Under the pieces are notes generated by a model. The model had not been told where the DNA came from, ran no database searches, and saw only the letters and a program-made list of their open reading frames with translations. Below, in pieces: positions 6,737-42,200 of a stretch of DNA of 64,000 nucleotides. How positions within the stretch are numbered: position 1 is the stretch's first letter; the number at the start of each line of letters is the position of its first letter. Origin of the DNA: a virus; the IMG/VR virus record IMGVR_UViG_3300010388_000228, positions 34,183 to 98,182 of that record; one strand, written 5' to 3'. The translations under genes and the position numbers were made by a program.

Positions 6737-6755
6737 GAGGATACTCCTAATAATG

Positions 6756-6783
6756 TAGTGTAGCAAGACCCCTTGCTACACTA
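6756..6783 (-). other. Perfect 12-bp hairpin between gp32 and the homing endonuclease
   Basis: TAGTGTAGCAAG pairs perfectly with CTTGCTACACTA around a 4-nt loop. It lies just after the gp32 stop codon and 20 nt before the endonuclease start, with no T run after it. It could stabilise the 3' end of gp32 mRNA, block processing, or reduce read-through into the endonuclease. Confidence 0.7.
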
Positions 6784-24889: not shown

Positions 24890-26383
24890 ATGCAACATTT
24901 TTATGACGGTGCTATACGCAAGTATATTACCCAAACAATTAGACTCTTTAGTGAGTTTTCAGTTCGATATGGTGATGGATCTTTGCATCGAGTACCAGTA
25001 GCATACGGTGATGCAGATAGACAGGCAGTAAATATCGTTCGTCAAAACTCAGAAAACGCCCTTAACTCAGTTCCAAAAATAAGTGTATATATTCATACCT
25101 TAGAGTTAGATAAAGATCGATTATCTGATTCATCGTTTGTAAGTAAAGTAGCAGTACGTGAGCGTGATGTACAACCAGATGCATCTGGTAACCTTAAGTA
25201 TACTTCTAATCGAGGAAGAAACTATACTATTGAACGGTTAATGCCAACTCCGTTTAAACTAACATTAAAAGTTGATATATGGACTGCAAATACTGATCAA
25301 AAATTACAGTTAATGGAGCAAATCTTAATGTTGTTTAATCCTAGTTTAGATATTCAGACATCTGACAACTATCTAGATTGGACTAGTTTATCTGTAATTT
25401 ATCTTGAAGGTATTAATTGGACAAGTAAAGCAATTCCTGTCGGTACTGACACTCCTATCGACATTGCAACATTAACGTTTTCTACACCAATATGGATTAG
25501 TCCTCCTGCTAAAGTTAAACAGCTTGGTGTAATTACAAAAATTATTACTGGTATATTTGACGGTAATACTACATTAAGTGAACCAATTTTTGGTTCAGAT
25601 TATTTAGATCCGTTATCAAAATTTACCGATGCAAGTGCAGCACTGTTAACTACTGTGCTTACTATTGTTGAAGATTTTTCAATTGAAGTATCTGATAATC
25701 AAGTAGTATTATTAGATTCGCATTATCACATACCATACGAAGAATCACAGTACGAAACTCCTGAAAGAAACGGGTTAGAAGTGAGTTGGGTTGAAATACT
25801 TGAAAAATATCCTAAAAAATTTATACCTGGTTTTAGCAGAATAATTGTAACGCAATTAGGCGGAATTGAAATTGTAGGTACATTAACAGCAAATCCATTG
25901 AATGAAGCAATAATGGACGTAGTATGGGATGCGGATACTCTAAATCGAAACACGTTAATTGATAGTCAAGGTTATTTAGATTCCGATGTTAATTATTTTA
26001 ATTTGTCAACATGTCTTCGTGCATCGCCTGGAACATTTAATGCAATTATTAACCCGTACACCTTTAATCCGTACGAACAAGGCGAACTTTTAGTTCCAGG
26101 TATTCGATATTTAATTATTGAAGATATTGGTTCTGATATTAATGAAAACGGCGCACTTGCATGGAAAGCAACAAATAATGATGATTTAATTGCACACGCT
26201 AATGATATTATTGAGTGGACCGGTGAGAAATGGAATGTTATTTTTGATTCTCAAACCGAAACTGATACTATTATTTGGCAAACTAACTTAACAGGTGGTA
26301 TTCAGTTTATGTGGAACGGTGTTGTGTGGACTAAAAGTTTTGAAGGGTTTTACAGGACAGGAAAATGGCGATTGGAGTTTTAA
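24890..26383 (+). CDS. 15: gp15 tail sheath stabilizer and completion protein
   Basis: 497 aa, longer than T4 gp15. gp15 caps the finished tail and joins it to the head. The start FYDGAIRKYITQTIRLFSEF and the motifs VRYGDGSLHRVPVAYG, PTPFKLTLKVDIWTANTDQ, LQLMEQILMLFNPSLDIQTS and FSTPIWISPPAKVK are those of T4-like gp15. The C-terminal half carries extra domains, including WEIL-type strands and NIVWD-like turns. Start from AGGAGAAAG. The 3' end overlaps the Nudix gene by 19 nt, so the latter is a late addition to a structural operon. Confidence 0.9.
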   Translation: MQHFYDGAIRKYITQTIRLFSEFSVRYGDGSLHRVPVAYGDADRQAVNIVRQNSENALNSVPKISVYIHTLELDKDRLSDSSFVSKVAVRERDVQPDASGNLKYTSNRGRNYTIERLMPTPFKLTLKVDIWTANTDQKLQLMEQILMLFNPSLDIQTSDNYLDWTSLSVIYLEGINWTSKAIPVGTDTPIDIATLTFSTPIWISPPAKVKQLGVITKIITGIFDGNTTLSEPIFGSDYLDPLSKFTDASAALLTTVLTIVEDFSIEVSDNQVVLLDSHYHIPYEESQYETPERNGLEVSWVEILEKYPKKFIPGFSRIIVTQLGGIEIVGTLTANPLNEAIMDVVWDADTLNRNTLIDSQGYLDSDVNYFNLSTCLRASPGTFNAIINPYTFNPYEQGELLVPGIRYLIIEDIGSDINENGALAWKATNNDDLIAHANDIIEWTGEKWNVIFDSQTETDTIIWQTNLTGGIQFMWNGVVWTKSFEGFYRTGKWRLEF

Positions 26384-26814
26384 AAGATCAAATTATATGT
26401 AGCGGTGCATTAATCTATTCACAAGCTACACATAGATTCTTACTAATTCAAAAGTCGTCTGGCAAGCATCAAGGTACATGGGGACTAGTAGGTGGAACTA
26501 ATTTAGTTAATGAAAATCCATGGCAAGGGTTAGTTAGAGAAATAGAAGAAGAGATTGGGTTTCTTCCAGACATTAAAAAAACACTACCGTTAGAAAAATT
26601 TGTATCTAACGATAGTGTCTTTAATTTTCATACATATTTTTGTTTAGTTAACAACGAATTTGTGCCAACATTAAGCGATGAACATATTGCCTGGGGTTGG
26701 TTTGATATAACTGTGTTACCTAAACCAATTCATCGTGGCTTAAATCTTAGCTTGCGTAACAAAGTTATTCAAACTAAGATTCAAACATTAATCGATATTA
26801 TTGACTCTTTATAA
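26365..26814 (+). CDS. Nudix hydrolase
   Basis: 149 aa. The Nudix box is complete: G-x5-E-x7-REIEEEIGF in GGTNLVNENPWQG... The family hydrolyses nucleoside diphosphate-linked compounds (nucleotide sugars, oxidised nucleotides, ADP-ribose derivatives), with Mg2+ bound by the glutamates. The substrate is not evident; nucleotide sugars would fit the nearby glycosyltransferase. AGGACAGG before the ATG lies inside gp15. Its 3' end overlaps that of the opposing halogenase by 17 nt, under a hairpin. Confidence 0.9.
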   Translation: MAIGVLKDQIICSGALIYSQATHRFLLIQKSSGKHQGTWGLVGGTNLVNENPWQGLVREIEEEIGFLPDIKKTLPLEKFVSNDSVFNFHTYFCLVNNEFVPTLSDEHIAWGWFDITVLPKPIHRGLNLSLRNKVIQTKIQTLIDIIDSL

Positions 26815-28288
26815 CAGAGTCAATCCACTGTTTATGATCTACAGATTGCTGCTCGATATATTTTTTAAGTTCTTTAATTTGTTGCGATGCACTAGCAGCA
26901 TGATCGTATAGCCATCTAGATTTTAAAAAGTTTTCTAAATTATCAGTATTTTTAAATAATCCATACCCATATGCAATGCAATTAAAATCTGCAGACTCAA
27001 ACATGTCTGCAGCAGTTTTATTAAAATTGTAAATAGTTAACGGAGTACTATCAATTAAGGTTATTATATCTTTAATTTCGTCTGGAGTATTATCAGTTAA
27101 ATATTGCCAAAATGAAGAATCTGTTCGGCCAGTATTATAAAAAAATCGTATATATTTAAACGTATTTTTATATATTGTAGTCATTACTGTGTTATAATGA
27201 TTTATTATTTGAGTAGATGTAATACCGTCAAACACCTTTGTAATTAAATCTATTTGTGTAAATGCATGATGTATGTTAGTTGCTTCGAGAGGTTCAACAA
27301 ACCCACTCGACAATCCAATTGCAACACAATTGCCTACCCAATGCTCTGCATTATATCCGCTCTTAAATTTAATAATACGATCAGACGTTAAATTAACATT
27401 GTATTTTTCTTTTAACCATTTATCAAATTCAAATCGAGCCTCGTCATCTGTTGTAAATTTACTGCTATATACATACCCAGTACCATGTCGATTTGATAAC
27501 GGCACATCAAGAATCCACCCATTTTTAGTTGCCTCTGCAGTCGTATATGGCGGGATATAATCAAAATCCTTAAACAGAGGAAACGGTATTGCTCTATCGG
27601 TTGGTAACTGATCAGATAAATCAACCCAATCAACTGCTAAGTGTTTAAACAACACTTGGTCTAACCCGGATGCATCTATAAATAAGTCAGCTGAATATTC
27701 TTGCCTATTTGCTAATTTGATAGAGGTAATAGATCTATTAGTAACATGTACATCGGTGACATTTCCGTCGATAATTGTAATTTTATCTTGAAATACAAAT
27801 TCGACATATTTACTAAGAAGACTTGCATCTACATGTAATGCATGTCGATATGATAAATTGTCAGTTGACGGTAATACGTTATTATTAAAATAAAATTTAC
27901 CATAGGTATAACCAGAATCGTATTGGTTATGTAAAATATCAAATGCGTCTACTGCATTAAAATCAACAAGTACCGGATTAACTAATGATAACGATTCGTT
28001 ATGTGGAAAACTGTGAAACCATTCGCTACCGTCGTGTGTCCAATTTTTAAACTTTAAACCAAGTTTAATCGTTGCATTACAATTTCGAATTAAATCAATT
28101 GTAGAAATACCCACTGTTTTTAAATAATTGTCAAATAGTGGCGTTAGACTCTCGCCTACGCCAATACCAGGTTTACTATGGTCGTATAGCATAGTAACAT
28201 CAGCACGATCTCCCCAGTAAGATTTGAAATAGCTAGCAGCCATAGCACCGGCTGTTCCGCCACCGACTACAATAATTTTAAATGTCAT
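26798..28288 (-). CDS. Flavin-dependent (tryptophan-type) halogenase 1
   Basis: 496 aa. These enzymes use FADH2, O2 and halide to make hypohalous acid, which a conserved lysine passes to an aromatic substrate. The GGGTAG nucleotide-binding loop is at 9-14, GIGVGES at 41-47, and the catalytic lysine lies in NATIKLGLKF (K75). The W-x-W-x-I-P element is changed: W258 is followed by ILDVP, so the second Trp is Leu and Ile is Val. GFVEPLEATNIHH marks the Trp-halogenase C-terminal motif. GAGGAGG precedes the ATG and the start overlaps the oxygenase stop by 11 nt. It may act on an unusual substrate or be an oxidase. No flavin reductase gene is nearby. Confidence 0.88.
   Translation of the reverse strand: MTFKIIVVGGGTAGAMAASYFKSYWGDRADVTMLYDHSKPGIGVGESLTPLFDNYLKTVGISTIDLIRNCNATIKLGLKFKNWTHDGSEWFHSFPHNESLSLVNPVLVDFNAVDAFDILHNQYDSGYTYGKFYFNNNVLPSTDNLSYRHALHVDASLLSKYVEFVFQDKITIIDGNVTDVHVTNRSITSIKLANRQEYSADLFIDASGLDQVLFKHLAVDWVDLSDQLPTDRAIPFPLFKDFDYIPPYTTAEATKNGWILDVPLSNRHGTGYVYSSKFTTDDEARFEFDKWLKEKYNVNLTSDRIIKFKSGYNAEHWVGNCVAIGLSSGFVEPLEATNIHHAFTQIDLITKVFDGITSTQIINHYNTVMTTIYKNTFKYIRFFYNTGRTDSSFWQYLTDNTPDEIKDIITLIDSTPLTIYNFNKTAADMFESADFNCIAYGYGLFKNTDNLENFLKSRWLYDHAASASQQIKELKKYIEQQSVDHKQWIDSVIKSQ
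26801..26823. terminator. Convergent hairpin across two stop codons
   Basis: TTGACTCT and AGAGTCAA form an 8-bp stem with a 7-nt loop over the ends of the Nudix and halogenase genes, which overlap by 17 nt. It may act as a two-way terminator or stop read-through between them, although T runs are missing. Confidence 0.55.
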
Positions 28289-28910
28289 AGTTATCCTCCT
28301 CTATAGTGTATGTAAAGTTTATAATCACTCGTCTATCAACATCATTAGGTGTTGCACTTGCATGATAATGTTCACCGTTAAAACCTAATAGTCTATTTCG
28401 ACGCGGGGCTACCTTATGAAGTATAGTTTCGTTACCTAAAAAATTTTCTTTAAAATAACTAAAACTTGCATCTGCAAAGTCTTCATATTTTGACTTATCT
28501 AAATTAAAATCATACTTTTCATTATAAATTACAGTCGGTGAATCTGAATCAATCAGATATAAAATACCTACTTGATGCGGATCTGGCATATCGATATGAG
28601 GATCATTAACATATTGGCCTGTTGTTCTTGGTTGTAATACTATTCGAACTCGAATTATTTCTTTTACAGTATGTCCGAGTTTATCAATTAAGTCAAGAAG
28701 TATAGGCTGTAACATTTCACCTATTTGATTATGTGGTTGACTGTTAGTAATTGGATAGTGTGTAAAATTAAACGGGTGCGGATTTGTGCTATTGAGTTTA
28801 TCAAAAGAATACGTAATTGGGCTATAATGCCATGGAAAATCATAATCTAAAATTTTTCTTTCTAGCAATGCAATTATTGCAGGTGATACCGCATTATCGA
28901 TTATTTTCAT
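28278..28910 (-). CDS. Prolyl-4-hydroxylase-like 2OG-Fe(II) oxygenase
   Basis: 210 aa. The double-stranded beta-helix core is visible: RVRIVLQPRTTGQ strand, then PHIDMPDPHQ with the H-x-D iron motif, LYLIDSDSPT, LGFNGEHYHAS with the distal His, and RRVIINFTY with the arginine that binds 2-oxoglutarate. These enzymes hydroxylate peptide or protein side chains or small molecules. The gene lies between the 21-codon leader frame and halogenase 1 (11-nt overlap), and its ATG overlaps the stop of that leader (ATGA), so translation is coupled. Substrate unknown. Confidence 0.85.
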   Translation of the reverse strand: MKIIDNAVSPAIIALLERKILDYDFPWHYSPITYSFDKLNSTNPHPFNFTHYPITNSQPHNQIGEMLQPILLDLIDKLGHTVKEIIRVRIVLQPRTTGQYVNDPHIDMPDPHQVGILYLIDSDSPTVIYNEKYDFNLDKSKYEDFADASFSYFKENFLGNETILHKVAPRRNRLLGFNGEHYHASATPNDVDRRVIINFTYTIEEDNYDI

Positions 28911-28972
28911 AGAGTTGCTAACCTCACAAGTCCTGCAATGCTATTTGGTAGATTTACGTTGTAATTTAACAT
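28907..28972 (-). CDS. 21-residue coupled leader or precursor peptide
   Basis: A short frame with sequence MLNYNVNLPN, then SIAGLVRLATL. It has an ideal ribosome binding site (AGGAG, 7 nt before ATG) and its TGA overlaps the ATG of the 2OG oxygenase. This is too well placed to be chance. It could be a regulatory leader, a substrate peptide tailored by the neighbouring oxygenase and halogenases, or simply a coupling device. It has one Tyr (residue 4), no Trp, Cys or His. It is too short for most gene callers. Confidence 0.6.
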   Translation of the reverse strand: MLNYNVNLPNSIAGLVRLATL

Positions 28973-28990
28973 ATAGTGTCTCCTTTTTTT

Positions 28991-29033
28991 ACTTATCAGA
29001 ATACTATGTTTGTGAAAATCAATTCTGATAAGT
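28991..29033. promoter_or_regulatory. 12-bp inverted repeat between divergent operons
   Basis: ACTTATCAGAAT and ATTCTGATAAGT are separated by 19 nt, in an 86-nt gap between the leader frame and halogenase 2. It could be an operator for a repressor that controls both directions. Only weak -35/-10-like boxes are seen. The same arms also form a hairpin at the 5' end of either transcript. Confidence 0.55.
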
Positions 29034-29058
29034 AACTTCATATTAAAAAGGAATAACT

Positions 29059-30645
29059 ATGCCTAAAAAAATTGAAAAAGTAGTGATTGTAGGTGGTGGA
29101 TCAGCTGGATGGATGAGTGCTGCTACATTGATTAATTTTTTTCCTAATAAACAAATTGTTGTTGTTGAAAGTCCAGATGTTCCTGCAGTAGGAGTCGGTG
29201 AAAGTACACTTGGTGGGATACGACACTGGATGTATGCGTTAGGAATTAATGAAAAAGACTTCATGCAGTATACAAATGCATCTTATAAAATGAGTATTAA
29301 GTTTACTGATTTTTATAATAAAGATGCTGGTTCGTTTCATTACCCATTCGGAAGTCCGAGATTATTTGATACTGAAACCGGATTAGCGGAATGGCAAGCA
29401 AAAAAAGCGTTGTATCCCGATACGCCAGTTGATGATTATTGTAGAAATTATTATTCAACAATGCCGTTAATCGAAAACAACAAATTTAGCAATAACGATA
29501 ATGGTGAATTTGATACTTTTAGACCTGATCTAGATGTTGCGTATCATTTTGAAGCATCGTTATTTGCTAGTTGGTTACGTGACAAATATTGTATTCCCCG
29601 TGGAGTAATTCATATTTTAGAAAACGTATCTAACATTACTACATCAGACATTGGAATAGAAAGTTTAACATTAGCTAACGGTGATACTGTTATTGCCGAT
29701 TTGTTTGTTGATTGTACTGGATGGAAAAGTATGTTGCTAGGGGATGCGCTTGATGAACCGTTTACTTCATACGAAGATATCCTTCCAAATAACCGAGCAT
29801 GGGCAGTTCAAGTACCATATACTAATAAAGAACTCGAATTAGAACCGTATACTAACTGTACTGCAATCGGACATGGTTGGGTGTGGAATATTCCACTATG
29901 GAGTCGATTAGGAACTGGCTATGTTTATAGCGATAAATTTATAACTCCGGAAGATGCACTACAAGAGTTTAAAGATTATTTAAATTCAAATAAAATGACA
30001 GTTTATAATCCTACCCGTACTGATGCGTTAGAGTTTAAAGATATATCAATGCGTATCGGTATTCACGAACGTACCTGGGTTAAAAACGTAGTTGCAATTG
30101 GGTTATCTGCAGGCTTTATTGAACCACTTGAAAGTAACGGGTTGTTTACTGTTCACGAGTTTTTGTTATCGCTTGTTGCAGTGCTTCAACGTGAGTACAT
30201 TAATCAATGGGATCGCGATACTTATAACACTGCAACTTTAGAAATATTTAATAATTTATCAGAATTTGTAGCGTTACACTATGCGTTAAGTGTTCGAGAT
30301 GATACTAATTATTGGCATGAAATGTCTAATAAAACATTTAGCCCTAATATGATAAAAAAGATTCCAACCCTAACTAAGGGGTTTAATGACCTAGTTAATA
30401 AAAAAATGTTTGAATTTGATCACAATCCAGTAGGCGGAATGCACTGCGTTGCTACTGGTATGAATTTTTTAGTACTAAGTAAGATTAATTTATTGTTTGC
30501 TGACCATGTTAATGGAGTAGATGTTAAAGAACGAGTAGATGCGTTTATTAACAGTCGATCAATACTTCAAGAAAAATGGCGTAAGGCTGCAGATAATTCA
30601 AAATTGTTAGTTGACTATTTAAAAGAGAATATACATAATGATTGA
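29059..30645 (+). CDS. Flavin-dependent halogenase 2 (canonical motifs)
   Basis: 528 aa, a normal length for the family. GGGSAG is at 12-17, the GVGEST loop follows, and the catalytic lysine is K77 in NASYKMSIKF. The W-x-W-x-I-P motif is intact at 274-279 (WVWNIP), and GFIEPLES follows. Such motifs are found in PrnA, and in the cyanophage enzyme VirX1, which prefers iodide. Substrate unknown. An AAGGAAT lies just before the start. It leads a plus-strand operon of seven genes. A flavin reductase, needed to supply FADH2, is not in the window, so a host enzyme may serve. Confidence 0.93.
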   Translation: MPKKIEKVVIVGGGSAGWMSAATLINFFPNKQIVVVESPDVPAVGVGESTLGGIRHWMYALGINEKDFMQYTNASYKMSIKFTDFYNKDAGSFHYPFGSPRLFDTETGLAEWQAKKALYPDTPVDDYCRNYYSTMPLIENNKFSNNDNGEFDTFRPDLDVAYHFEASLFASWLRDKYCIPRGVIHILENVSNITTSDIGIESLTLANGDTVIADLFVDCTGWKSMLLGDALDEPFTSYEDILPNNRAWAVQVPYTNKELELEPYTNCTAIGHGWVWNIPLWSRLGTGYVYSDKFITPEDALQEFKDYLNSNKMTVYNPTRTDALEFKDISMRIGIHERTWVKNVVAIGLSAGFIEPLESNGLFTVHEFLLSLVAVLQREYINQWDRDTYNTATLEIFNNLSEFVALHYALSVRDDTNYWHEMSNKTFSPNMIKKIPTLTKGFNDLVNKKMFEFDHNPVGGMHCVATGMNFLVLSKINLLFADHVNGVDVKERVDAFINSRSILQEKWRKAADNSKLLVDYLKENIHND

Positions 30646-31243
30646 TATACATCCGTTATTTTCAACTCCTGTATTCATAAGTACACCTGATGAGGAGGCA
30701 ACTCCTCATCATAACGTATTAGAATATTGTAAAACTTTAAAATACAATTTAAATATAGGTCAAAATTGGGCAAGTGAAGACACTGATATTTTGTCAAACC
30801 CGGTATTTAAAGAAATTCGAGTCTTAATACAACATGCAATAGACCAATATACAAAGAACATAATGATGTGGGACAACACTGAGTTTTATATTACACAATC
30901 GTGGATTAATGTTACTCCTAAAGATACAGAACACCATGTACATTATCATAATAATAGTATTATTAGTGGCACGTTTTACCTTCAAACAGTTAGTAACGAC
31001 TATATTATGTTTCGACATGATAAAAAGTCAATAATTGAATTTGATAGAAGTTCATTTAACATTTGGAATTCCGATACATGGAAACTTAATGTTTCAACTA
31101 ATGCTATTGCAATTTTCCCATCGTCAATATATCACAATGTTGAAAAACATGATGAAAATATTGACAGAGTTAGTATCGCATTTAATGTGTTCTTTCGAGG
31201 TGAAGTTGGTAGCAAAGAAAAATTAACATACTTAAAATTATAA
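30638..31243 (+). CDS. 2OG-Fe(II) oxygenase-like protein (TIGR02466 type)
   Basis: 201 aa. The start IHPLFSTPVFIS is the family's usual P-L-F-x-T-P opening. The iron segment is EHHVHYHNNSIISGTFYLQ, then IFPSSIYHNVEKH with the distal His and RVSIAFNVFFRG with the Arg. It overlaps halogenase 2 by 8 nt. Similar proteins at 32167 and 362 share this layout. A partner of the halogenase is likely because the two are coupled, but the substrate is not known. Confidence 0.85.
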   Translation: MIDIHPLFSTPVFISTPDEEATPHHNVLEYCKTLKYNLNIGQNWASEDTDILSNPVFKEIRVLIQHAIDQYTKNIMMWDNTEFYITQSWINVTPKDTEHHVHYHNNSIISGTFYLQTVSNDYIMFRHDKKSIIEFDRSSFNIWNSDTWKLNVSTNAIAIFPSSIYHNVEKHDENIDRVSIAFNVFFRGEVGSKEKLTYLKL

Positions 31244-31246
31244 CAT

Positions 31247-32170
31247 ATGAATACAGCATTTATTATTAACGGAGGCGCTGGTCGTGTGCTATGCGCAATT
31301 CCTGCATTAGAAATTTACGAAGCAAGTTATCCCAATGACGATTTTATTATTGTTGTCGAATACTGGATTGATTTATTTAAAGGGCATCCAACATTATATA
31401 AACGATGTTTTGATGCTGCTCATAAAAATTTGTTTGAAGATAAAATTAAAAGTCGACAGATAGTAGCACCTGAACCATATCAACTGTGGGAATATTATAA
31501 TCAAAAAGCGTCAATTGCACAAGGATTTGATATTGCAATAAATCATAGCGGACTACGCCCAATTCATCGGCCGTCAATTTATTTGTCTAACGCCGAACGG
31601 AACGGAGGAGTTGCATCAGTTAACGCTATTAGAAAGGAACATAATAAAAAAATTATCGTTTTCCAACCGTTCGGAAGAGGTTCTGCATTTCATAACAATG
31701 AAATAGTAGACGATGTATTTGGAAAATCATTTTTTATTAGCGATGTTATTAATATTATTAAGAATTTACAAGCAAAATATACGATTTTATTAATGTCCGA
31801 ATCTACTATAGAATTTGATAAATTAGACAAAAGTGTACAAGTTGCACAAATACCAAATTTATCAGTTCGACAATGGATGGCAATCATTAATGCTTCGGAT
31901 TATTTTTTAGGGTGTGATAGTTTAGGACAGCATATTGCATATTCATTAAATAAGCCAGCTACTGTGGTGTTAGGTAGTACATTTAAAGAAAATGTATCAT
32001 ATCCAAATGTTGACAATTTTAACATAGTTGATGTTGGTGAAGATAAAAAAGAGTATTCACCGTTGCGCGTATGCTATGATACCGCAATTGATATTAACAA
32101 TGAAAATTTAATGAGATTAAATCAGCATCATATTTCTGATATTATTACATTAATTGAAAACGCAATATGA
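31247..32170 (+). CDS. Family 9 glycosyltransferase-like protein (heptosyltransferase type)
   Basis: 307 aa. The two-domain GT-B pattern is visible: a GGAGRVLCAIPALE N-terminal loop, then IIVFQPFGRG at the linker, then the C-terminal ASDYFLGCDSLGQHIAYSLNKPATVVLGS, the nucleotide-sugar site. GT9 enzymes usually add heptose to lipopolysaccharide; in phages they may modify other acceptors such as proteins, glycans or DNA. No clear ribosome binding site is present, and it starts 3 nt after the oxygenase stop, so re-initiation is probable. It overlaps the next gene by 4 nt (ATGA). Confidence 0.75.
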   Translation: MNTAFIINGGAGRVLCAIPALEIYEASYPNDDFIIVVEYWIDLFKGHPTLYKRCFDAAHKNLFEDKIKSRQIVAPEPYQLWEYYNQKASIAQGFDIAINHSGLRPIHRPSIYLSNAERNGGVASVNAIRKEHNKKIIVFQPFGRGSAFHNNEIVDDVFGKSFFISDVINIIKNLQAKYTILLMSESTIEFDKLDKSVQVAQIPNLSVRQWMAIINASDYFLGCDSLGQHIAYSLNKPATVVLGSTFKENVSYPNVDNFNIVDVGEDKKEYSPLRVCYDTAIDINNENLMRLNQHHISDIITLIENAI

Positions 32171-32772
32171 CGCCTGAATTACTTCCGTTATTTCCAACTG
32201 CTATCTATAAACATAAAATTCGATCGTTATTAGATACTGAATTATTAGCAGTTAACACTGCTCCTATGATTGCACAAGGTCTCGGAAATCATAGTTCAGT
32301 TAACACATATATTTTAGAGTTAGAAGAGTTATTGGAATTAAAAAATGAAATATTACATAATATTAACGTATATTTCTGTGATGTATTACACTTCACAAAC
32401 GAAGTTTATATAACAAATTCGTGGATTAATATTACTGATTCAAACGAAATGCATATGGGTCACACTCATACTAATAGCATCATTTCAGGAGTGTATTATA
32501 TAGATGTAGATAATAGCCAACCAATGATTTCTTTTAATCGGATTGCTCCTCCATTTTTATTAAACATGTTACCGACTGAATTTAATATATTTAATTCAAT
32601 CGAATGGGACGTTCCTGTTGAAAATAACAGCATTGTGTTATTTCCGTCATCATGCTATCATTATGTTAAACGAAATGAATCAGCAAATAAAAGAATTAGC
32701 ATTGCATTTAACACATTTATTAGAGGGCAGCTTGGAACTAAATTTTCAGGTGCCGATTTAGATTTAAGGTAA
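32167..32772 (+). CDS. 2OG-Fe(II) oxygenase-like protein, paralogue
   Basis: 201 aa, exactly the length of the island copy at 30638. P-L-F-x-T-A opening (ELLPLFPTAIYKH), then WINITDSNEMHMGHTHTNSIISGVYYI with the iron histidines, LFPSSCYHYVKR with the distal His, and RISIAFNTFIRG with the Arg. The two copies are clearly duplicated yet distant, so different substrates or positions are plausible. The start overlaps the glycosyltransferase stop. Confidence 0.83.
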   Translation: MTPELLPLFPTAIYKHKIRSLLDTELLAVNTAPMIAQGLGNHSSVNTYILELEELLELKNEILHNINVYFCDVLHFTNEVYITNSWINITDSNEMHMGHTHTNSIISGVYYIDVDNSQPMISFNRIAPPFLLNMLPTEFNIFNSIEWDVPVENNSIVLFPSSCYHYVKRNESANKRISIAFNTFIRGQLGTKFSGADLDLR

Positions 32773-32777
32773 AAACT

Positions 32778-34571
32778 ATGAATAAAAAACCAATTTGGAT
32801 TGCCGGAGTTGCTAGAGGTCATAATGCCGGCGTATGCTTGTTAAAAGATGGAGAAATTGTATTTTCAATTGAAGAAGAACGATTGTCAAGAGTTAAATAT
32901 GACGGCGGACCATTTGCCAGCATTCTTAAAATATTAGAGTATACCGATAGACTTGACTTTTTAGTATTTTCTCATACTACTCCCCTACACACTGCAGGAA
33001 CTATTGAGTTTTCCGGTGATAATATATATGTTGGATTTGCTAGAAAATTAGGGTTAATTTCAAAAGATCTAGGTTACGGTATGCAACATCCTCAAGTTAT
33101 TGATCTTAGCCACTTACACCATAAAATGCATGCAGCATGTGCATTTTATAGATCAGGTTGGGATGATGCAGTTGCATTAGTTGTTGATGGTGCTGGAACA
33201 TATTGTCCAACAAGTATTGATGATCAAGAATTAACATCTTGGGAAGTTGAATCAATCTACACCTGCGAGTATCCTGCAAGTTTTAAAACGTTATATAAAC
33301 ACCTTGGGTTGCCTAACAGCGTTAGAACACACATTGAACCTGCTGTCGCTAGTCAGTTTTTTGATGAAGACGGCACGCATGAATCTGTGTTTTCAGACAG
33401 AGCAGGAATCGTAAAAGTATACGAAGCAGTAACTAAATATTGCGGATTTCAGGAAATTGATGCAGGAAAAACCATGGGGTTATTCCCGTACGGAAAAGAA
33501 AATTTAAATATTCCTCCGTTATTTGAACAGTACGGAGATCTATATCTTTCAAACAGAAATTTTGTTATTCCCACTTACCCTGCAGGTGCAAAATTAAACA
33601 ATCATTTATTTCCGTTTTTAGATACAAATAATTATGATGATCTAACCCTAGAACAAAATAGACGTGACCTTGCGTATGCAGTACAACTGCAATCTCAAGA
33701 GCAGGTTGTTAAATTAATTAAAAAAGCAGTTACAATGTCTGGAAAGAATAAGGTAGTTATTAGTGGCGGGTATGGGTTAAACTGCGTTGCAAACTACTAT
33801 TATTTAAGCCAGCTACAAAACGAAGGTATCGAATTATATATTGAACCAATAAGTAACGATGCAGGTACTGCAATAGGAGCTGCATTGTATTTTTGGCATA
33901 TGTATACTAACAATACAACTATCCGCACGTATAATTCAGTTTACTTAGGACCGCTATTAAATTATTCGATTGATAACATACTGTCAATTGTATCAACTAC
34001 TAGTGTTGATATTACTGATGCTACTTACGCTGATATTGTTGATTTAATAATTAAAAAGAACATTGTTACTATTTTTCAAGGACGGTCGGAAAATGGGCCA
34101 CGTGCATTGGGTAATCGATCAGTTTTGTTTGATCCTAGATTTGTAGACGGTAAGGACTTTGTTAATTCAGTAAAACATCGTGAATATTTTAGACCGTTTG
34201 CTGGTACAATTTTAGAAGAACATGTGCATGAATGGTTTGATCTCAGAGGAATGAAAAATAGTCCGCATATGATGTATGCAGTAAATTGCCAACCAGGTGT
34301 TGAACATCAAATACCAAGCATTATTCATGTTGACGGTACTTGCAGAATTCAAACAGTTACCGAAGAACAGAATTTTCATTATTATAATTTGATAAAAGAA
34401 TTTTATAATCAAACAAGTGTTCCGGTATTATTTAATACAAGCTTCAACTTAGGTGGTGAACCGTTAGTTGAAACATTAGAAGATGCAATTTGGACTTTAC
34501 AAAATTCAGATATTGAATACTTGTATTTGCCAGAATTTAATAAATTAATTACTATACCAAATAAGGAGTAA
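32778..34571 (+). CDS. NodU/TobZ-type O-carbamoyltransferase
   Basis: 597 aa, a full-length family member. These enzymes use carbamoyl phosphate and ATP to form carbamoyl-AMP, which is transferred to a hydroxyl of a sugar or other product. The Kae1-like N-terminal domain has HNAGVCLLKDG, EEERLSRVKYDGG, a metal site in DLSHLHHKMHAACAF and VVDGAG, and GGYGLNCVAN. The C-terminal domain starts at about 430 with GRSENGPRALGNRSVLFDPR, REYFRPFA, HVDGTCRIQTV and PVLFNTSFN. AAGG precedes the ATG. It is rare in phages, and points to a hydroxylated or glycosylated acceptor made by its neighbours. Confidence 0.92.
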   Translation: MNKKPIWIAGVARGHNAGVCLLKDGEIVFSIEEERLSRVKYDGGPFASILKILEYTDRLDFLVFSHTTPLHTAGTIEFSGDNIYVGFARKLGLISKDLGYGMQHPQVIDLSHLHHKMHAACAFYRSGWDDAVALVVDGAGTYCPTSIDDQELTSWEVESIYTCEYPASFKTLYKHLGLPNSVRTHIEPAVASQFFDEDGTHESVFSDRAGIVKVYEAVTKYCGFQEIDAGKTMGLFPYGKENLNIPPLFEQYGDLYLSNRNFVIPTYPAGAKLNNHLFPFLDTNNYDDLTLEQNRRDLAYAVQLQSQEQVVKLIKKAVTMSGKNKVVISGGYGLNCVANYYYLSQLQNEGIELYIEPISNDAGTAIGAALYFWHMYTNNTTIRTYNSVYLGPLLNYSIDNILSIVSTTSVDITDATYADIVDLIIKKNIVTIFQGRSENGPRALGNRSVLFDPRFVDGKDFVNSVKHREYFRPFAGTILEEHVHEWFDLRGMKNSPHMMYAVNCQPGVEHQIPSIIHVDGTCRIQTVTEEQNFHYYNLIKEFYNQTSVPVLFNTSFNLGGEPLVETLEDAIWTLQNSDIEYLYLPEFNKLITIPNKE

Positions 34572-34572
34572 T

Positions 34573-35307
34573 ATGTCAGTTACTACACCACCATGGTTAT
34601 CATGGAACTTTTTAGAATTTAAAAGCGAGCCGGCAATTAGCCCATTTGCTCCTGAATATCATTACATATTTGCCGAAAATAAAATTGTTAATGTTGATTT
34701 TAAAAAAATTGCATCTATAATTTTAGAAAAAGAAAAAACAATAATTGAATCCACTTCCCCAACATCAGATGCTTATACAGGGTTAGGTGATGATAGTTTA
34801 ACATCAAGATGGAAATCATTTAACGTGTTTGCATGGTCTGAACCGGAAATAGAAAAACTTAAATCGCAGATATATTTACGATATTTAGAATTTTTGAAAG
34901 CATATAATGTGCCTAGATCTAATGTTAAAATTCAATGTTGGGCAAATGTATTAAGAGAAGGCGGAGAAATAAATCCACATATACATTCGACAGGTAAATG
35001 GGCATATTTAGGCGGCCATGTAACTGTTCAGTGCGAAGACACGTATACAGTTTATATTAATCCAATTAATCAAATAAACGATCCAGAAACATATAATAGC
35101 CGTAACGAAGTTGGAAAAATTACATTTTTTCAACATAACATTCCTCATTTTACTACACCACATTATAGTACAACTGGTTTAGAAAGAATTACTATCGCGT
35201 TTGACCTATCAATGGAAGAATTTGTTAACTCGTTTGATCATAATGCACATCCTGAATGGAATAATTATGTAGTGTTTGACGATCCTAATTTAGAGAAAGT
35301 GGCATGA
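34573..35307 (+). CDS. Probable 2OG-Fe(II) oxygenase-like protein, divergent
   Basis: 244 aa. It has a longer N terminus than the others (SVTTPPWLSWNFLEFKSEP). The likely iron motif is EINPHIHSTGKWAYLGGHV in a strand after QCWANVLREGG, and a distal His may be in FFQHNIPHFTTPH, with an Arg in ERITIAFDL. The W-A-N-x-L-x-x-G-G opening before the HxH motif is typical of the wider family. AAGGAG stands before the ATG. It overlaps halogenase 3 by 4 nt. Activity is less certain than for the other copies. Confidence 0.65.
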   Translation: MSVTTPPWLSWNFLEFKSEPAISPFAPEYHYIFAENKIVNVDFKKIASIILEKEKTIIESTSPTSDAYTGLGDDSLTSRWKSFNVFAWSEPEIEKLKSQIYLRYLEFLKAYNVPRSNVKIQCWANVLREGGEINPHIHSTGKWAYLGGHVTVQCEDTYTVYINPINQINDPETYNSRNEVGKITFFQHNIPHFTTPHYSTTGLERITIAFDLSMEEFVNSFDHNAHPEWNNYVVFDDPNLEKVA

Positions 35308-36473
35308 AAATAGCAGTTATCGGAGTAGGTACTGCAGGTATAACATCATTATGTCATGCATTAAGATGGTTAACAACTGACGAAACTACAATTACGTCAA
35401 TTTATGACCCATCTGTTAAAATACTTGAAATCGGTGAATCAATGGATCCTGGGTTTCCTACTGTATTATTTGAAGGTACTGGGTTTACATTAGTAGAAGA
35501 TGCAAATAAATTAGATGCTACTATGAAATTAGGCGTAACTTGGAAAGGTTGGAGAGATCAAGAATTTACCTCGTTAATGCATCCTCCGTCATATGCGATG
35601 CATTTTAATAATGGAAAGTTAAAGGATTATTGTTTTAGTAAATTTGAAGAACTTTGGGATACTTATTTTAATATTATTGAAGGGGCAGTTACTACTTTAG
35701 AAAATAAAGATTCGCACGTAGTAGTTGTTGTAAACGAATCTGAGTATACATTTGATTATGTAATAGATTGTCGTGGCACTCCTACCGATTTTTCAGAATA
35801 TGTTATAGTTAATAATCCGGTTAATCATTGCCTTGTGCATTCTGTAGATAAACCAGGAGACTGGAATACAACTATTCATCAAGCGCATACTAATGGTTGG
35901 ATGTTTGGTATCCCGTTATCTTCTCGCCAAGGATGGGGGTATCTATATAATGATAATATAACATTAAGAGACGATGCAGTAAAAGAGTTAGAGGAGCTAT
36001 TTAACACAACTGAGTTAAATTTAAAAGAATTTAAATTCACTAGTTATTATGCTAAAAAGTTTTTTGATGGACGAATTATAAAAAATGGGAACGCTGCTAT
36101 GTTTTTTGAACCAATGGAGGCATTATCTGGTTATTTCTATAGTACAGTGTTACGTAATTTAGTTGATTACATATACGGTGAATGTTCAGTCAATGACGTA
36201 AATAGCCGATTAACAGATGCTGCTCAAGATATTGAAAATTTTATCAATTATGCATATCACGGCGGTTCAACATTTAACAGTCCGTTTTGGAATAATACAG
36301 TTATTCAAACATCTAAAAAATTACAAAATGATTCTAGATGGCAAATAACTTTATCTGAAATAAAATCATGTATACACAACGGTAAAATTATACACGAACG
36401 TTCTATTGCAAGATGGTACATTCGGCATTGGATTAATTGGGATAAGAATTTAGGTTATAATTATTTTACTTAA
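35304..36473 (+). CDS. Flavin-dependent halogenase-like protein 3, shortened
   Basis: 389 aa, over 100 residues shorter than the other two. GVGTAG at 7-12 binds FAD, EIGES follows and K75 in LDATMKLGVTW is the catalytic lysine position. The W-x-W-x-I-P element reads W199 MFGIP, so the second Trp is Phe. FFEPMEAL matches the C-terminal motif. The missing parts are mainly in the substrate-binding region between the two motifs. It could act on a bulky substrate such as a protein or be a partner subunit. It is the last gene of the operon, before a terminator. Confidence 0.82.
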   Translation: MKIAVIGVGTAGITSLCHALRWLTTDETTITSIYDPSVKILEIGESMDPGFPTVLFEGTGFTLVEDANKLDATMKLGVTWKGWRDQEFTSLMHPPSYAMHFNNGKLKDYCFSKFEELWDTYFNIIEGAVTTLENKDSHVVVVVNESEYTFDYVIDCRGTPTDFSEYVIVNNPVNHCLVHSVDKPGDWNTTIHQAHTNGWMFGIPLSSRQGWGYLYNDNITLRDDAVKELEELFNTTELNLKEFKFTSYYAKKFFDGRIIKNGNAAMFFEPMEALSGYFYSTVLRNLVDYIYGECSVNDVNSRLTDAAQDIENFINYAYHGGSTFNSPFWNNTVIQTSKKLQNDSRWQITLSEIKSCIHNGKIIHERSIARWYIRHWINWDKNLGYNYFT

Positions 36474-36514: not shown

Positions 36515-37024
36515 TTATAAAGGATTAGCAGGTGGCAGTGACCATTTCCCCACTTTTGATAAAAGTGTTGGCGGTGTTGGCCACGGGATATCTTTTCTTA
36601 ATTTTATATTTTCAAAGTCTATCGTGTCGGTCATTTCTCGTAATGCAGTGCGATACTCTGCCCACGCTGCTTTTTCTTCTACAGTTAATGGAGCATCATT
36701 AAGTTGTGTCCAATCGCAAGACATAAAGTAATATTCTCTAGGACTAAGTATCCATCTTCTAACTTTTTCCTCAATGGATAACTCAGATATATCCCATAGT
36801 TGCTCAATTGTACCGTCGGAGTTTTTAACAATTTCTCCCCGTGTACAATTTATATCTTCTATATTATCTATAATAGGTAAGTCATAGTTTAAAACTACTG
36901 CAAGATTGTGAGCTAATAAATCCGATTCTAAAAACTCAGTAGTATCTAATATACCAACAACGTTTTCCCACAGTATCGGATAATCAATTGGATCGCCATT
37001 TTCGTCAATTTTAATATATATCAT
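36515..37024 (-). CDS. Tail fibre assembly chaperone (Phage_tail_APC type)
   Basis: 169 aa. The C-terminal half has RRWILSPREYYFMSCDWTQLNDAPL, then EEKAAWAEYRTALREM and PWPTPP, the recognised pattern of phage tail-assembly chaperones (PF16778) with SCDWTQ and a YRxxLR helix. These proteins help fibres to fold and are not part of the particle. Upstream is the Gly-rich tip gene. A run of AGGAAAAC lies before the ATG. It lies at the end of the fibre operon, before the bidirectional terminator. Confidence 0.85.
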   Translation of the reverse strand: MIYIKIDENGDPIDYPILWENVVGILDTTEFLESDLLAHNLAVVLNYDLPIIDNIEDINCTRGEIVKNSDGTIEQLWDISELSIEEKVRRWILSPREYYFMSCDWTQLNDAPLTVEEKAAWAEYRTALREMTDTIDFENIKLRKDIPWPTPPTLLSKVGKWSLPPANPL

Positions 37025-37048: not shown

Positions 37049-38944
37049 TTACATGTCTGATGCATTTGTTGGATAACTGCGGCCGCCTCCCCATATAATA
37101 CGAACACCGCCATATCCGCCCCAGCCACCGCCGGAGCCGGTGCCACCGCCGCCACCCCCGCCACCGTAGTTGCCGCCACATGCAAAACCGTTACCTTGGC
37201 CGTTACTATACGGTTCACCGTTTTTACCGCAAGTACCACCGGATCCGCCTTGTCCTGCGCCGCCACCTGTTCCGTGACCCCCAGGTGATGCCGAACCGCA
37301 TGCACCGTTAGAACCTTGTCCGTAAATTCCAGTGCCGCCACCGCCACCGGTACCGTGAGTTGAACTATGATGTGAAGTTGCGCCACCACCACCACCGTAG
37401 CATCCAACATGCCCAGATGGTCGACTATTACAAGTGTTATTACAATATCCGCCACCGCCACCGCCACCGCCTGCGGTATCCGGATATGCAATCATACCAC
37501 AACTACCGCACCCGGATGTATACGTTCCACTAAGAGTGTAACTTCCTGCACAACAGCCGCAACAGCCACCACACGCAACAAATCCAGGGAAACATGAACA
37601 CCCGCCTTGGGAACCACCCCAACAACCGCCGTTGCCGACGGCAATTGTATAGCTACTACCGGGAGTCACTGGAATACCATTAGCCCAAACTAACCCACCG
37701 CCGGCGCCACCGCAATACGCCCATCCGCTGCAGCCACCACCACCGGCGCCAATTGCAGCAATACTAACAGTCGTTACGCCAGACGGTGCAACCCATGTAT
37801 ACGTAGACGACCCTCCATTTGTATTCGAAGAACTTCCGGAATATAAAACTTGGCCAATCGGCAGCGGAATAACAATATTAACACTAAAAGTCCGATCATA
37901 TGTCACAGTATTAGCAGTTGCGGTAATAGTAAACGAATAGTTAGTAGTAGTTCCGTATCCTGCAGTTGATGTACCAGAAATAACACCAGTTGACGAATTT
38001 AATGTTCCGTTCGATGGCAACGTTCCGCTTACTAACGTATACGTAACTGCTGACATAGACGTTGCATTTAATGTAATCGAATACACTCCGTTAGTTGCAG
38101 TGTAATTCGGTATAGTTGCAGGAGTTACCCATACCGGTCTATAATCTATGTACATTCTAGACGCTGCATGGCTGTCTGAAGTTGGGTTAGGAACGCTAAC
38201 TGTACCAGTAAACGTTGTATTACCAGAAATACTAACAGTAGAATTTGCATCTAATGTTGTAAACTTACCAGTAGATCTAGTAGTACTACCAATTGCCATA
38301 TTGTTAATTGATCCAGTAGTACCTGACGCAATCGAAATAACTCCTGCACCAGTTGTTGAGATGGTTTGATTGTTTGTGCCAGTAGTTGCTGATAATGCTC
38401 CAGTAAATGTTGTATTACCAGAAATACTAACAGTAGAATTTGCATCTAATGTTGTAAACTTACCAGTAGATCTAGTAGTACTACCAATTGCCATATTGTC
38501 AATTGATCCAGTAGTGCCTGACGCAATTGATATAGTTCCAGTTGACGACGTACTAAATGTCTGATTGTTAGTAGTAGTGTTTGCAGTAATTGCACCAGTA
38601 ATGTCAGTTGTAGATGCAACTAATGGTCCACCGGTTTCTGCAAAAACAACATAGTCTGTGCCATCGGATGCAAGTTCTACTGTGCCAAGCGACGGTATAG
38701 TTTGGGTAGCAGCTGTTGAACTTTCAAGACCTTTAAATACACCACTTGGTGTTGAAATAGTAATTACACCAGACGTGCTATTATAAAATCGTTGTGTTGA
38801 TCCATAATGTAATCTCGGATCTGGAAGTATAACAGTGTACGGTGCAGTACCTGCAAATTCAGTAAATAACCCTTGTGCTGGGGTAGTAATCGTTGTCGCG
38901 CTTGTAATTATTCGCGAGACCGATACCGTATTATAACGTGCCAT
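37049..38944 (-). CDS. Tail fibre or tip protein with Cys- and Gly-rich C terminus
   Basis: 631 aa. The N-terminal third has beta repeats (TVSISGNTTFTGA, STTRSTGKFTTLD) in two near-identical copies, then an Ig-like domain (about 275-355; the NGTLNSSTGVISGTS pattern of cadherin-like putative Ig domains). The C-terminal 250 residues are glycine-rich with about 24 Cys (CGGCCGCCAG, CSCFPGFVACGG), ending GGVRIIWGGGRSYP, a C-terminal signature of phage fibre tips. Gly-rich tips in T4-like adhesins such as S16 gp38 form polyglycine II bundles that bind the host. The unusual Cys content is unlike those. No late box is seen upstream; GGAGAT is the ribosome binding site. Confidence 0.8.
   Translation of the reverse strand: MARYNTVSVSRIITSATTITTPAQGLFTEFAGTAPYTVILPDPRLHYGSTQRFYNSTSGVITISTPSGVFKGLESSTAATQTIPSLGTVELASDGTDYVVFAETGGPLVASTTDITGAITANTTTNNQTFSTSSTGTISIASGTTGSIDNMAIGSTTRSTGKFTTLDANSTVSISGNTTFTGALSATTGTNNQTISTTGAGVISIASGTTGSINNMAIGSTTRSTGKFTTLDANSTVSISGNTTFTGTVSVPNPTSDSHAASRMYIDYRPVWVTPATIPNYTATNGVYSITLNATSMSAVTYTLVSGTLPSNGTLNSSTGVISGTSTAGYGTTTNYSFTITATANTVTYDRTFSVNIVIPLPIGQVLYSGSSSNTNGGSSTYTWVAPSGVTTVSIAAIGAGGGGCSGWAYCGGAGGGLVWANGIPVTPGSSYTIAVGNGGCWGGSQGGCSCFPGFVACGGCCGCCAGSYTLSGTYTSGCGSCGMIAYPDTAGGGGGGGGYCNNTCNSRPSGHVGCYGGGGGATSHHSSTHGTGGGGGTGIYGQGSNGACGSASPGGHGTGGGAGQGGSGGTCGKNGEPYSNGQGNGFACGGNYGGGGGGGGTGSGGGWGGYGGVRIIWGGGRSYPTNASDM
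38214..38531. repeat. Two 195-bp direct repeat units in the fibre gene
   Basis: A segment of about 120 bp beginning GTTGTATTACCAGAAATAC appears at 38214 and again at 38409 with only a few changes. It encodes the STTRSTGKFTTLDANS type repeat. Being a multiple of 3 bases, recombination between copies keeps the frame. Confidence 0.9.
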
Positions 38945-38961: not shown

Positions 38962-39282
38962 TTATGATGTAGAGGTTTCAATACCATACACATTAACATT
39001 AACTCCTGTACCGCTGCAATATGCAACTACTTGTAAGCCAGCTCCGCCAACCAATCCAGTTCTTTCAAATACACCGTTACCTACAATAGTAGTATCATAT
39101 TCAATATATTCGCTTACTGCAGGGGTAGCAGCAGATGCAGTTGCTAATCGAATAGTAACTGCACTAGTTGTTGTATTTGTAAATGAAACGTTAAACACTG
39201 TATACGACCCGGTGGGTACAGTATATACAGTTGTTAACGTAGTTGCTGCTAATTGGGTTGTGCCCAATCTTCCTGTTGCCAT
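38962..39282 (-). CDS. Small beta-rich virion protein
   Basis: 106 aa. One compact beta domain: TTVYTVPTGSYTVFNVSFTN, SAVTIRLATASA, SEYIEYDTTI, GVFERTGLVGGAGLQVVAYC. The order of strands resembles that of the gene at 58815 (TVIGLSLTNTSDAIILASIRI), so the two are distant paralogues. Similar small proteins lie beside tail fibres in cyanophages. Start from GGAGAAATAAAC. Role unknown; a fibre-attachment or fibre-associated domain is possible. Confidence 0.7.
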   Translation of the reverse strand: MATGRLGTTQLAATTLTTVYTVPTGSYTVFNVSFTNTTTSAVTIRLATASAATPAVSEYIEYDTTIVGNGVFERTGLVGGAGLQVVAYCSGTGVNVNVYGIETSTS

Positions 39283-39297
39283 GTTTATTTCTCCGTA

Positions 39298-42200
39298 TTA
39301 TCGTTGATTAAAGAACATAAGAGCTACTGGAGCTCCATCAATTCCACCTGTAAAATTCATTTTTGAAGTTACGTTTATTGCAGTACCATTAATATTTGTA
39401 ATTGTATTACCTGAAATATATATTTGGCCAGCTGTGATTGTATTTACGTTCAATGAACTTGAACCACCACCAATTTGTGATGTAATAAACGCCTTAATTG
39501 CTTTTTGTGTTGGTACTATATTATCACTGTTTGCTGTAAAATATGGATCTGTACTAAATTGAGTAATAGTTGCACTACCAATTCCTAACACAACTGATCC
39601 TAACGTTAAACTTTGTAATCCAGATAAGTTAAATGCATCTGCGTTTAATGTTGCAGTACCGGTTGATTGTTGAACACCAAATAAGTTACCTACGTTAAAG
39701 TTACCATCTTGGTCAGTACTTGTAAAGAATACACGTCCACCGCCAGTTGATAATTCCTGGCTAGCTTGTATAGCCTTTGTTGGATCAACATTTGGATAGT
39801 TAGTTGATGTTTGATTTCCAGTACCAATGTATAAAAAGTCATGGCCGGTTAATCGTACTTGACTATATTCTAAATTAGTAGTAATCAACGTTCCGTGCTT
39901 TGGAGCATCTAATGTTGACAGCGCAGGACTGATTTGTAAAGTAGCAGTATAGTTACCTGGTATTCCTAAAATATTAGAAACCGAAACAAGTTTATACCAT
40001 CTATCGTTACCAGTAATTGTACTAAACACAACGTTTGACCCCGGTGTCGGCATTTGATACAACGACGATACATTTATGTATGTACCAGGTTGATATAAGT
40101 CAGCATATCCATCACCTGAAATACTTGCTGTAGCTGTAGTATTTGCAGTACCTCTATTACCAAAGCTTGGATTACCTAATGCACCGTTACCAATGCGTGC
40201 TGCAACTGGAACAGTGTTAACATGATTTGGATCAATTACAGTAACAATTGGACTTGCAAAGTACGTCATTCCTGTTATTGCTGCAGTTGAAAGTGCAATT
40301 GCACTACCGCCCGCAGTTAATGATATTGAAAATTCAGTAGATGTAATACTGCCAGAAACTACATAGTAGTATTTATCAGTAATAATACCGCCTGTACTTA
40401 CACCATTAAAAATAATCGGTTGATTTGCTATTAAATTGTTAGTAGTGTCGCAAGTAATAACATTAGTTGTAACTGTAGTTGAAATAACATTTCCTCTTGG
40501 GAATCCGCTACCAGGTTCAATCATTCTAATTTCAGACACTGCGTTATCTTTTATTTGCACACGACCTAATGGCGTTGCACCAGTTTTAATGCTTGCACCA
40601 GTTGTTCCACTAGTACTTGATACTGCCGACCACACTGGAGTTGCGCCTAACGTTTCATTAATTGGGTTTCCAAACGCAATTGCAGTCCAATTACTCGATA
40701 CTGACATTGCATGAATTGCCCAATTAATACCGTCCCAACTAGTAGCACATGCATCCGTGCCTGCTGCAATTGCAAAAAATAAGCCTTGTCCATATGCAAC
40801 TTTAGTCCAAGTTACAGTACTTGGTAGACCAGCAGTTGTTGATTGGAACCACGATGTGCCAACATTATAACTATACGCAATTGTACCGTTTGCAGCTAAT
40901 GCAACAAATCGACCATTACCGTATGCAATGCTTGCCCAAGTAGTTGATATTGGTAAATTACCACCTGCTGTCCATGCTACTGCATTAACTGTAGTTGTAG
41001 TAATATTCCCCGATGCCGGAATTGCAACAAATCGACCATTACCGTATGCAACTGCAGCGTATGTAACCGCTCCAGTGATGTTACCAGATCTATTAATCCA
41101 CGATGCTGTAGTTGCGTTACCTGTCATTGATGCAGCTGACGGTGTAGTTGTGGTACCGCCTACAGCTACATAAATGTTATTTCCGTATGCTAACCCTTTT
41201 AAATCACTAGTTGGTAATACAGTTGTAGTAGGTGACCAAGTGCTTGATAAAGTAGTTGGTAAATTGTATGCACTTGCGGTACTGCTACTTGATATTGCAA
41301 CAAATGCTGATTGTGCATCTATTACTTGTATAACCGGTGTAAACTTGTATCCATCACCGGGAGATACAATTGTAAAGCCACTTACACCATTATTGGTTAA
41401 ATTAGCAGTTACGGCTGCTAACGTTGCAATGTATGTTAGTGATACAGATCCGTTTGTGCCAGTTCCTGATGTAAATACAGGACCAGTTAGCCCACCAATT
41501 GAAAATGTGCCAGCAGTAGTTGCTAAGTAATAATGCACAATTCCAGACACATCCGCGTAAGAATAATTTGTGCCTATTACTGCAGAACCACCACTGGTCC
41601 ATTGAGTTGCAGTAACTGGTGGTTCTATAGAAACTGTCGGAATTGCAAAATAGTTTGAACCCCATGTTAGCGCAGTTATACTAGATAGCTGGCTTGTATA
41701 TACCGAAATAGTTGCACCATTATAATAGCCGCCGCCTTGAATTTCTAATGTTACTGTAGTAATAGTACCATTTAAGACTGTACAAGTGGCAACTGCACCA
41801 ACACCGCCCGAAATTGCATTAAACACAATCGTCGGTGGAGTCAAATAATTGTATCCACCATTTACAATAGTTATATTAACAATTTGTCCTGCACTTGTAC
41901 CAGTTCCAATTGTTGCAGTTAGCACTGCACCTCCGCCTCCTAATCCTCCAACGACTGCCGATGCAGTAGCACCAGTACCACCGCCGTATACTACGTTTGA
42001 CCATGTTGTACTTGACGGCATTGCACCACCAGGCGCCCATGTTTTTCCATCAATACACGCTGATGTAGAAGTAGAGCCAGATGCTAACGCAACAAAATGC
42101 CCGTCGCCGTAACCAATGGCACTCCATGTTGCAGTAGTTGATAACACATTTGCAGTTGCAGTAAACCCTGGATTAGTATATGTAATTTGTGGTTCAATAA

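Follow-up and report, generated by a model that had tools for sequence, protein, structure and literature searches.

A phage island of halogenase, oxygenase, glycosyltransferase and carbamoyltransferase genes that may modify the tail-fibre tip

Why does a virus carry three flavin-dependent halogenases, four 2-oxoglutarate (2OG)-Fe(II) oxygenases, a glycosyltransferase (GT) and a carbamoyltransferase (CT) in one island? This question is raised by a 64-kb stretch ("the window") of the 98,182-bp IMG/VR virus record IMGVR_UViG_3300010388_000228, in which these nine enzyme genes are bordered on the left by a sheath stabilizer gene and a Nudix gene (24890-26814) and on the right by tail-fibre genes on the minus strand (from 36515 onward). 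In marine phages, halogenases and 2OG oxygenases have long counted as auxiliary metabolic genes without an explanation, and they have been read as enzymes of metabolite or antibiotic synthesis. A first-pass annotation of the window saw a likeness to natural-product tailoring and left four targets open, namely a peptide, a virion protein, a host surface glycan or a defence-related molecule. Our results favoured the virion protein from this list, and not the natural-product analogy. With moderate confidence, we regard the island as a virion-directed post-translational modification system for the tip of the tail fibre. The results suggest that the enzymes chemically modify the virus at its site of contact with the host, and that they do not serve small-molecule synthesis.

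The content of the island was tied to the type of the tail-fibre tip, and in hundreds of viral contigs enzymes of this kind co-occurred with glycine-rich tips. Loci were counted on IMG/VR contigs, with hidden Markov models built for this analysis. When an 82-residue piece of the window's glycine-rich tip protein was used as the query, 38 loci were returned. In homologs of the window type (61-76% identity over 82 amino acids, at least 3 kb visible downstream), a halogenase gene was present in 21 of 22 loci and a CT gene in 19 of 22, whereas loci with distant glycine-rich tips contained neither of them (0/9 in both cases; p=5e-7 for the halogenase and p=1e-5 for the CT). The sole window-type locus without a halogenase, L512, contained three 2OG genes and a CT gene within 3.8 kb. 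A separate scan covered the Syn10-type tip (PF21722, phrog_863). Here, loci of at least 12 kb contained a halogenase in 59 of 59 cases and a 2OG gene in 57 of 59, and none contained a CT. In all 74 Syn10-type loci with both tip and halogenase, the halogenase gene was found downstream of the tip gene, on the same strand and at a distance of at most 1.5 kb. At 70% identity, the tips of this sample fell into 30 clusters and the halogenases into 39.

The background rate of halogenases was low, with 2 of 35 gp13-anchored and 4 of 39 sheath-stabilizer-anchored loci. The gp13-anchored scan was considered as an unbiased sample, but its islands were too few for an association test, and it was kept as background only. 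Among CT-anchored loci, a glycine-rich open reading frame (ORF) was present in 3 of 7 halogenase-positive versus 1 of 67 halogenase-negative loci (p=0.002). When all anchors were pooled, the odds ratio of glycine-rich ORFs versus halogenases was about 9, but this value was set aside because of anchor bias. Cultured cyanophages with a Syn10-type tip, i.e. Syn10, Syn9, S-CREM1, S-SZBM1, S-WAM1, P-TIM40 and P-RSM6, had a halogenase gene nearby in seven of seven cases, and the VirX1 gene of Syn10 is located downstream of three glycine-rich tip-type genes. The earlier statement that halogenases occur singly in cyanophages was not upheld, as Syn10 and Syn9 each have two in tandem.

The sequences of the enzymes were also compared between loci. 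In a halogenase tree of 190 rows, the three window halogenases Hal1, Hal2 and Hal3 fell into three separate, supported clades, and each of these clades consisted of halogenases of the same tip type, save a few unclassed rows. The loci L015 and L016 contained the identical nine-gene set at full length, with 46-76% amino-acid identity and a nonsynonymous substitution rate (dN) far below the synonymous rate (dS). Therefore, the island is not a chance assembly. These data bear on the alternative that the fibre-side slot is a recombination hotspot for mobile cargo, at which tip and island are co-inherited although their jobs are unrelated. Such a hotspot is consistent with the hypervariability of the slot, with the lack of the island in many relatives, and with the inversion of the pair of Hal3 and the adjacent oxygenase gene 2OG-D in L015 and L016. 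However, it would account poorly for halogenases that accompany two unrelated families of tips almost without exception and are missing beside remote tips, for three halogenase clades that all follow the tip type, and for nine genes that are all kept under purifying selection. We consider it unlikely.

Several observations nevertheless weigh against fibre-tip modification. For any query, the collection scans return no more than its closest relatives, and the clustering is thereby inflated. In the window's own lineage, glycine-rich ORFs were present in 14 of 35 halogenase-negative sheath-stabilizer loci; therefore, a glycine-rich tip does not require the island. Some halogenase genes are located away from fibre genes, as in S-B64. 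Tryptophan and tyrosine were not raised in the glycine-rich segments of halogenase-positive loci; histidine and glutamine alone were higher, relative to a control set that was small and confounded. The AlphaFold model of the window tip had low confidence, with a predicted local distance difference test (pLDDT) score of 25-40 within the tip. T4-type late promoters were not enriched within the window, and sigma-70-like sites occurred there at chance level. No heptose-synthesis gene was found in the 98-kb record, and neither was a relative of HldE, kinase, GmhA, cupin or epimerase. The main doubt is that tip and island may have been inherited as one block, and therefore their association need not mean a relationship of enzyme and substrate.

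Is the island intact, and are its genes what they were taken for? All nine genes were present at the positions of the first-pass annotation and intact, with putative catalytic motifs (Table 1), and the check for inactivating mutations revealed no island protein that looks inactivated. The halogenase and CT assignments of the first-pass annotation were confirmed by profile matches and motifs, and the oxygenase assignments by profile matches. Judged from the sequences, the enzymes are conserved and under purifying selection. The island is organized in two divergent operons that are 148 bp apart. The leftward genes are 2OG-A and Hal1, which overlap by 11 nt (28278/28288), and the rightward order is Hal2, 2OG-B, GT9-like gene, 2OG-C, CT, 2OG-D and Hal3, with junctions of -8, +3, -4, +5, +1 and -4 nt (overlaps negative). 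Thus, the divergent operons had been described correctly, but just two plus-strand junctions are overlaps of exactly 4 nt, as had been claimed for this operon. Terminase and sheath place the window among relatives of jumbo myophages (PA5oct, Phosso and Atu_ph07), and not among standard cyanophages; the phage is a large, marine-type phage with relatives of the jumbo type. The Nudix gene follows the sheath stabilizer gene in 47 of 47 sheath-stabilizer loci of at least 9 kb, and it probably lies outside the island proper. Elsewhere in the window, a homing-endonuclease-like ORF (phrog_314; 5993-6766, minus strand) is located between the genes for a UvsX-like recombinase and a single-stranded DNA-binding protein.

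Table 1. Positions of the enzyme genes of the island and of the bordering genes in the window
Feature	Position	Strand	Length (aa)	Remarks
Tail sheath stabilizer	24890..26383	+		phrog_11196/227; island boundary
Nudix hydrolase	26365..26814	+		lineage marker bordering the island
Hal1, flavin-dependent halogenase	26798..28288	-	496	PF04820 E=1e-91; phrog_2928
2OG-A oxygenase	28278..28910	-	210	phrog_274 E=3e-34; HID...H
Hal2, flavin-dependent halogenase	29059..30645	+	528	PF04820 E=1e-103; VirX1-like
2OG-B oxygenase	30638..31243	+	201	PF13759/phrog_81
GT9-fold glycosyltransferase	31247..32170	+	307	phrog_8954 / T4-GC 302
2OG-C oxygenase	32167..32772	+	201	PF13759/phrog_81
NodU/TobZ/CmcH-type O-carbamoyltransferase	32778..34571	+	597	PF02543+PF16861; phrog_1601 / T4-GC 303
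2OG-D oxygenase	34573..35307	+	244	phrog_81 E=3e-20
Hal3, flavin-dependent halogenase	35304..36473	+	389	PF04820 E=6e-29; phrog_2928
Tail-fibre assembly chaperone-like protein	36515..37024	-	169	phrog_4912
Gly-rich tail-fibre tip protein	37049..38944	-	631	phrog_4474
Small tail-fibre protein	38962..39282	-	106	phrog_11338/693
Giant fibre-region protein	39298..50364	-	3688	upstream of the tip genes

The PF04820 scores of Hal1, Hal2 and Hal3 were 308, 348 and 102 bits, compared with a curated cut-off of 21. Hal1 contains the motifs GGGTAG, WILDVP and EPLEA and a catalytic-type lysine (ATIKLGLKF), Hal2 contains WVWNIP and EPLES, and Hal3, which is shortened in its middle, contains GVGTAG, ATMKLG, WMFGIP and EPMEA. 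The glycine motif, the catalytic-type lysine and the glutamate are kept in all three proteins, and the strict WxWxIP motif only in Hal2. By these motifs, all three are predicted halogenases. The nearest solved structure of Hal2 is VirX1 (PDB 6qgm, E=9e-100), at only 35% identity. For the halogenases, weak family matches were obtained with LodB, GoxB and QhpG, which are flavoenzymes working on protein-borne residues. This likeness may be counted for tip modification as a lead, not as a test.

Among the oxygenases, 2OG-B and 2OG-C scored above the Pfam cut-off for PF13759 and 2OG-D just under it (26.1 versus 27 bits). These three have the iron-site pattern HxH...H, which is also found in the solved relative 2rg4. 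No Pfam match above the cut-off was obtained for 2OG-A, and its S-SSM7 relative "denV" (L007:15364-15918) matched PF13640 (2OG-FeII_Oxy_3, E=5e-9). The family of 2OG-A, phrog_274 / T4-GC 100, carries the name "DNA endonuclease V", whereas 2OG-A has a canonical HxD...H; from this motif and the PF13640 match, the label looks wrong throughout cyanophage annotation. Two more phrog_81-type oxygenase genes are located outside the island (362-988, minus strand, and L005:6227-6838, plus strand). All three halogenase genes overlap with a 2OG gene (28278/28288, 30638/30645 and 35304/35307). A general rule that every halogenase has its own 2OG partner was rejected; it is true for the window and its near relatives, yet it applied to only 83 of 236 halogenase genes. 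Among halogenase-anchored loci, 64 of 80 contained 2OG genes and 24 of 80 at least two halogenases. A 193-aa gene labelled ferrochelatase (phrog_2954; L011:12126-12707), without a Pfam match, was present in 38 of 80 halogenase-anchored loci, in halogenase/2OG islands, and possibly encodes a further tip-modifying enzyme.

The N-terminal part of the window tip protein is variable, and its C-terminal tip (approximately residues 382-620) is strongly conserved and rich in glycine, cysteine, aromatic residues and histidine. It had no match in Pfam, including PF21722 (Gly_rich_2), which does match the Syn10 tip. The cysteine richness (GGCW...ACGGCCGC) is conserved among carriers, and Syn10-type tips have conserved histidines in place of the cysteines. 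The polyglycine-sandwich adhesin gp38 of phage S16 is likewise a glycine-rich receptor-binding tip that ends a long tail fibre; in contrast to the strongly conserved window-type tip, it has hypervariable distal loops, and modification enzymes are not mentioned in the excerpted text of that paper (PMC6851490). The median gap between tip and halogenase genes in Syn10-type loci is about 540 bp. In Syn10 itself, a small gene (phrog_1787, L013:7974-8468) lies between the glycine-rich tip and the first halogenase, and the window has its tail-fibre chaperone at the matching place. A second glycine-rich stretch of the window is found in an fn3-domain protein (59251-60975, minus strand), which is possibly another fibre component.

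For the glycosyltransferase, which has the signature GCDSxGQHxAxAL, no Pfam match was found, GT9 included, and the match to TIGR02201 was weak (E=9e-4, 18 bits versus a cut-off of 170). The AlphaFold model had a pLDDT of 94, and in a Foldseek search the top 30 PDB matches were all GT9 proteins (E 8e-11 to 8e-8). The best fold matches were WaaC, WaaF and TibC; the GT-B/GT9 fold is common to all of them, but the identity is only 10-13%. Thus, the GT9 call of the first-pass annotation holds at the level of the predicted fold, but not by sequence profile. TibC heptosylates an adhesin protein, a likeness that could be taken as a lead to fibre glycosylation, not as a test of it. Cyanophage members of this family (GT302 proteins, L007-L010) have a proline/glutamine-rich C-terminal tail of 60-110 residues, which could be a tether; the window member is without this tail. 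The CT matched PF16861 with 192 bits and PF02543 with 93 bits, and H114, H118, D137 and D361 were invariant among five relatives. Like TobZ, NodU and GdmN, it has both Pfam domains and conserved histidine, aspartate and C-terminal motifs; unlike these enzymes, it is encoded in a tail-fibre and not in an antibiotic context.

The genes for the GT9-like protein and the CT form a separable, fibre-linked core pair. They were close neighbours in 71 of 80 CT-anchored and 71 of 80 GT-anchored loci, fibre genes were present in 77 of 80 loci of either set, and relatives of the giant fibre-region protein adjoined the pair in most loci. A cellular origin of the GT family was rejected, as 84,980 cellular species genomes yielded only ten matches, all on contigs of metagenome-assembled genomes; the CT gene adjoined in 10 of 10 cases and fibre-type genes in 9 of 10. 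Therefore, no bacterial model system was found. The pair could instead point to remodelling of a host surface glycan, lipopolysaccharide (LPS) or capsule, during infection, e.g. for a block of superinfection. LPS heptosyltransferases have the GT9 fold, heptose-type genes lie beside the pair in 21 of 80 GT-anchored loci (e.g. in P-SSM2 and S-CAM1), and two papers propose a host-surface change for cyanophage LPS clusters (PMC3037559, PMC7824862). Yet, two or more heptose genes were found in none of the ten GT+halogenase loci examined, a glycan offers no aromatic target to aromatic halogenases, and the correlation with tip type is not predicted by glycan remodelling, which we judge to be distinctly unlikely.

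Could the island instead serve to make or tailor a secondary metabolite, halogenated and carbamoylated, with an effect on the host or on its competitors? The enzyme classes are like those of antibiotic tailoring, and VirX1 accepts many small molecules in vitro, according to the title of Gkotsi et al. 2019. For a halogenase/CT/2OG cluster in S-SSM6a, Iyer et al. 2021 (PMC7824862) predict a secondary metabolite or capsule decoration. However, the nine genes include no scaffold synthase, transporter or resistance gene. A precursor peptide within the island was rejected: no gap is longer than 148 bp, which leaves no room for it, and the small ORFs in the gaps resemble noise. In addition, placement and content of the island track the tip type, and GT and CT stay with fibre genes even without halogenases. 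The likeness to natural-product tailoring was therefore unsupported, and a metabolite is quite unlikely.

Gene clusters of this kind had thus been described before in part, with a product that is only predicted for S-SSM6a. In S-SSM6a and S-SSM7 (T4-GC 302/303 neighbourhood), GT302, CT, 2OG and halogenase genes are clustered as in the window, there between tail-fibre genes and gp13. These phages differ from the window by one halogenase, two CTs, heptose, kinase and isomerase genes, and no window-type tip was seen; the window has three halogenase genes that each overlap with a 2OG gene, no heptose genes were seen, and the phage is of the jumbo type. The Syn10 VirX1 locus resembles the window in having a VirX1-like halogenase next to glycine-rich genes of the fibre tip and to several 2OG genes in a row, but it has no GT302/CT beside VirX1, and its tip belongs to phrog_863 instead of phrog_4474. 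Sullivan et al. 2010 (PMC3037559) report prnA and a CT as sporadic genes of cyanophages, without settling what the LPS-type clusters do, and the S-SZBM1 paper (PMC9146016) places its CT in pyrimidine synthesis. The passages considered from these papers and from PMC7824862, which do not cover the VirX1 study, contain no link from the enzymes to fibre tips. Our literature search yielded nothing on tail-fibre glycosylation or hydroxylation or on halogenated virion proteins. The window island is a richer variant of an already described kind of cluster; the association with the tip is the new part, and it points to a different function.

If the island modifies the fibre tip, it would act late, during fibre assembly. 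Each halogenase is encoded together with a 2OG oxygenase, and these enzymes would halogenate and hydroxylate conserved tryptophan, tyrosine, histidine and neighbouring side chains of the glycine-rich tip protein. The GT9-fold enzyme would attach a sugar, which may be heptose-like by analogy with TibC and WaaC, to a fibre protein, and the CT would O-carbamoylate this fibre-bound sugar. As a benefit, the receptor-binding surface might be chemically diversified or toughened. Beyond the window, the chances appear even that halogenase/2OG islands, with or without the GT9-like/CT pair, are widespread viral systems that modify fibre tips with halogens, hydroxyls and carbamoyl-sugars, and that the glycine-rich tip is the natural substrate of VirX1. 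Tip modification is testable by ordinary proteomics in phages that are already cultured. If it is true, halogenases and 2OG oxygenases would be genes of adsorption and host range, VirX1 would gain a natural substrate, and virions would be a place to seek halogenated protein residues.

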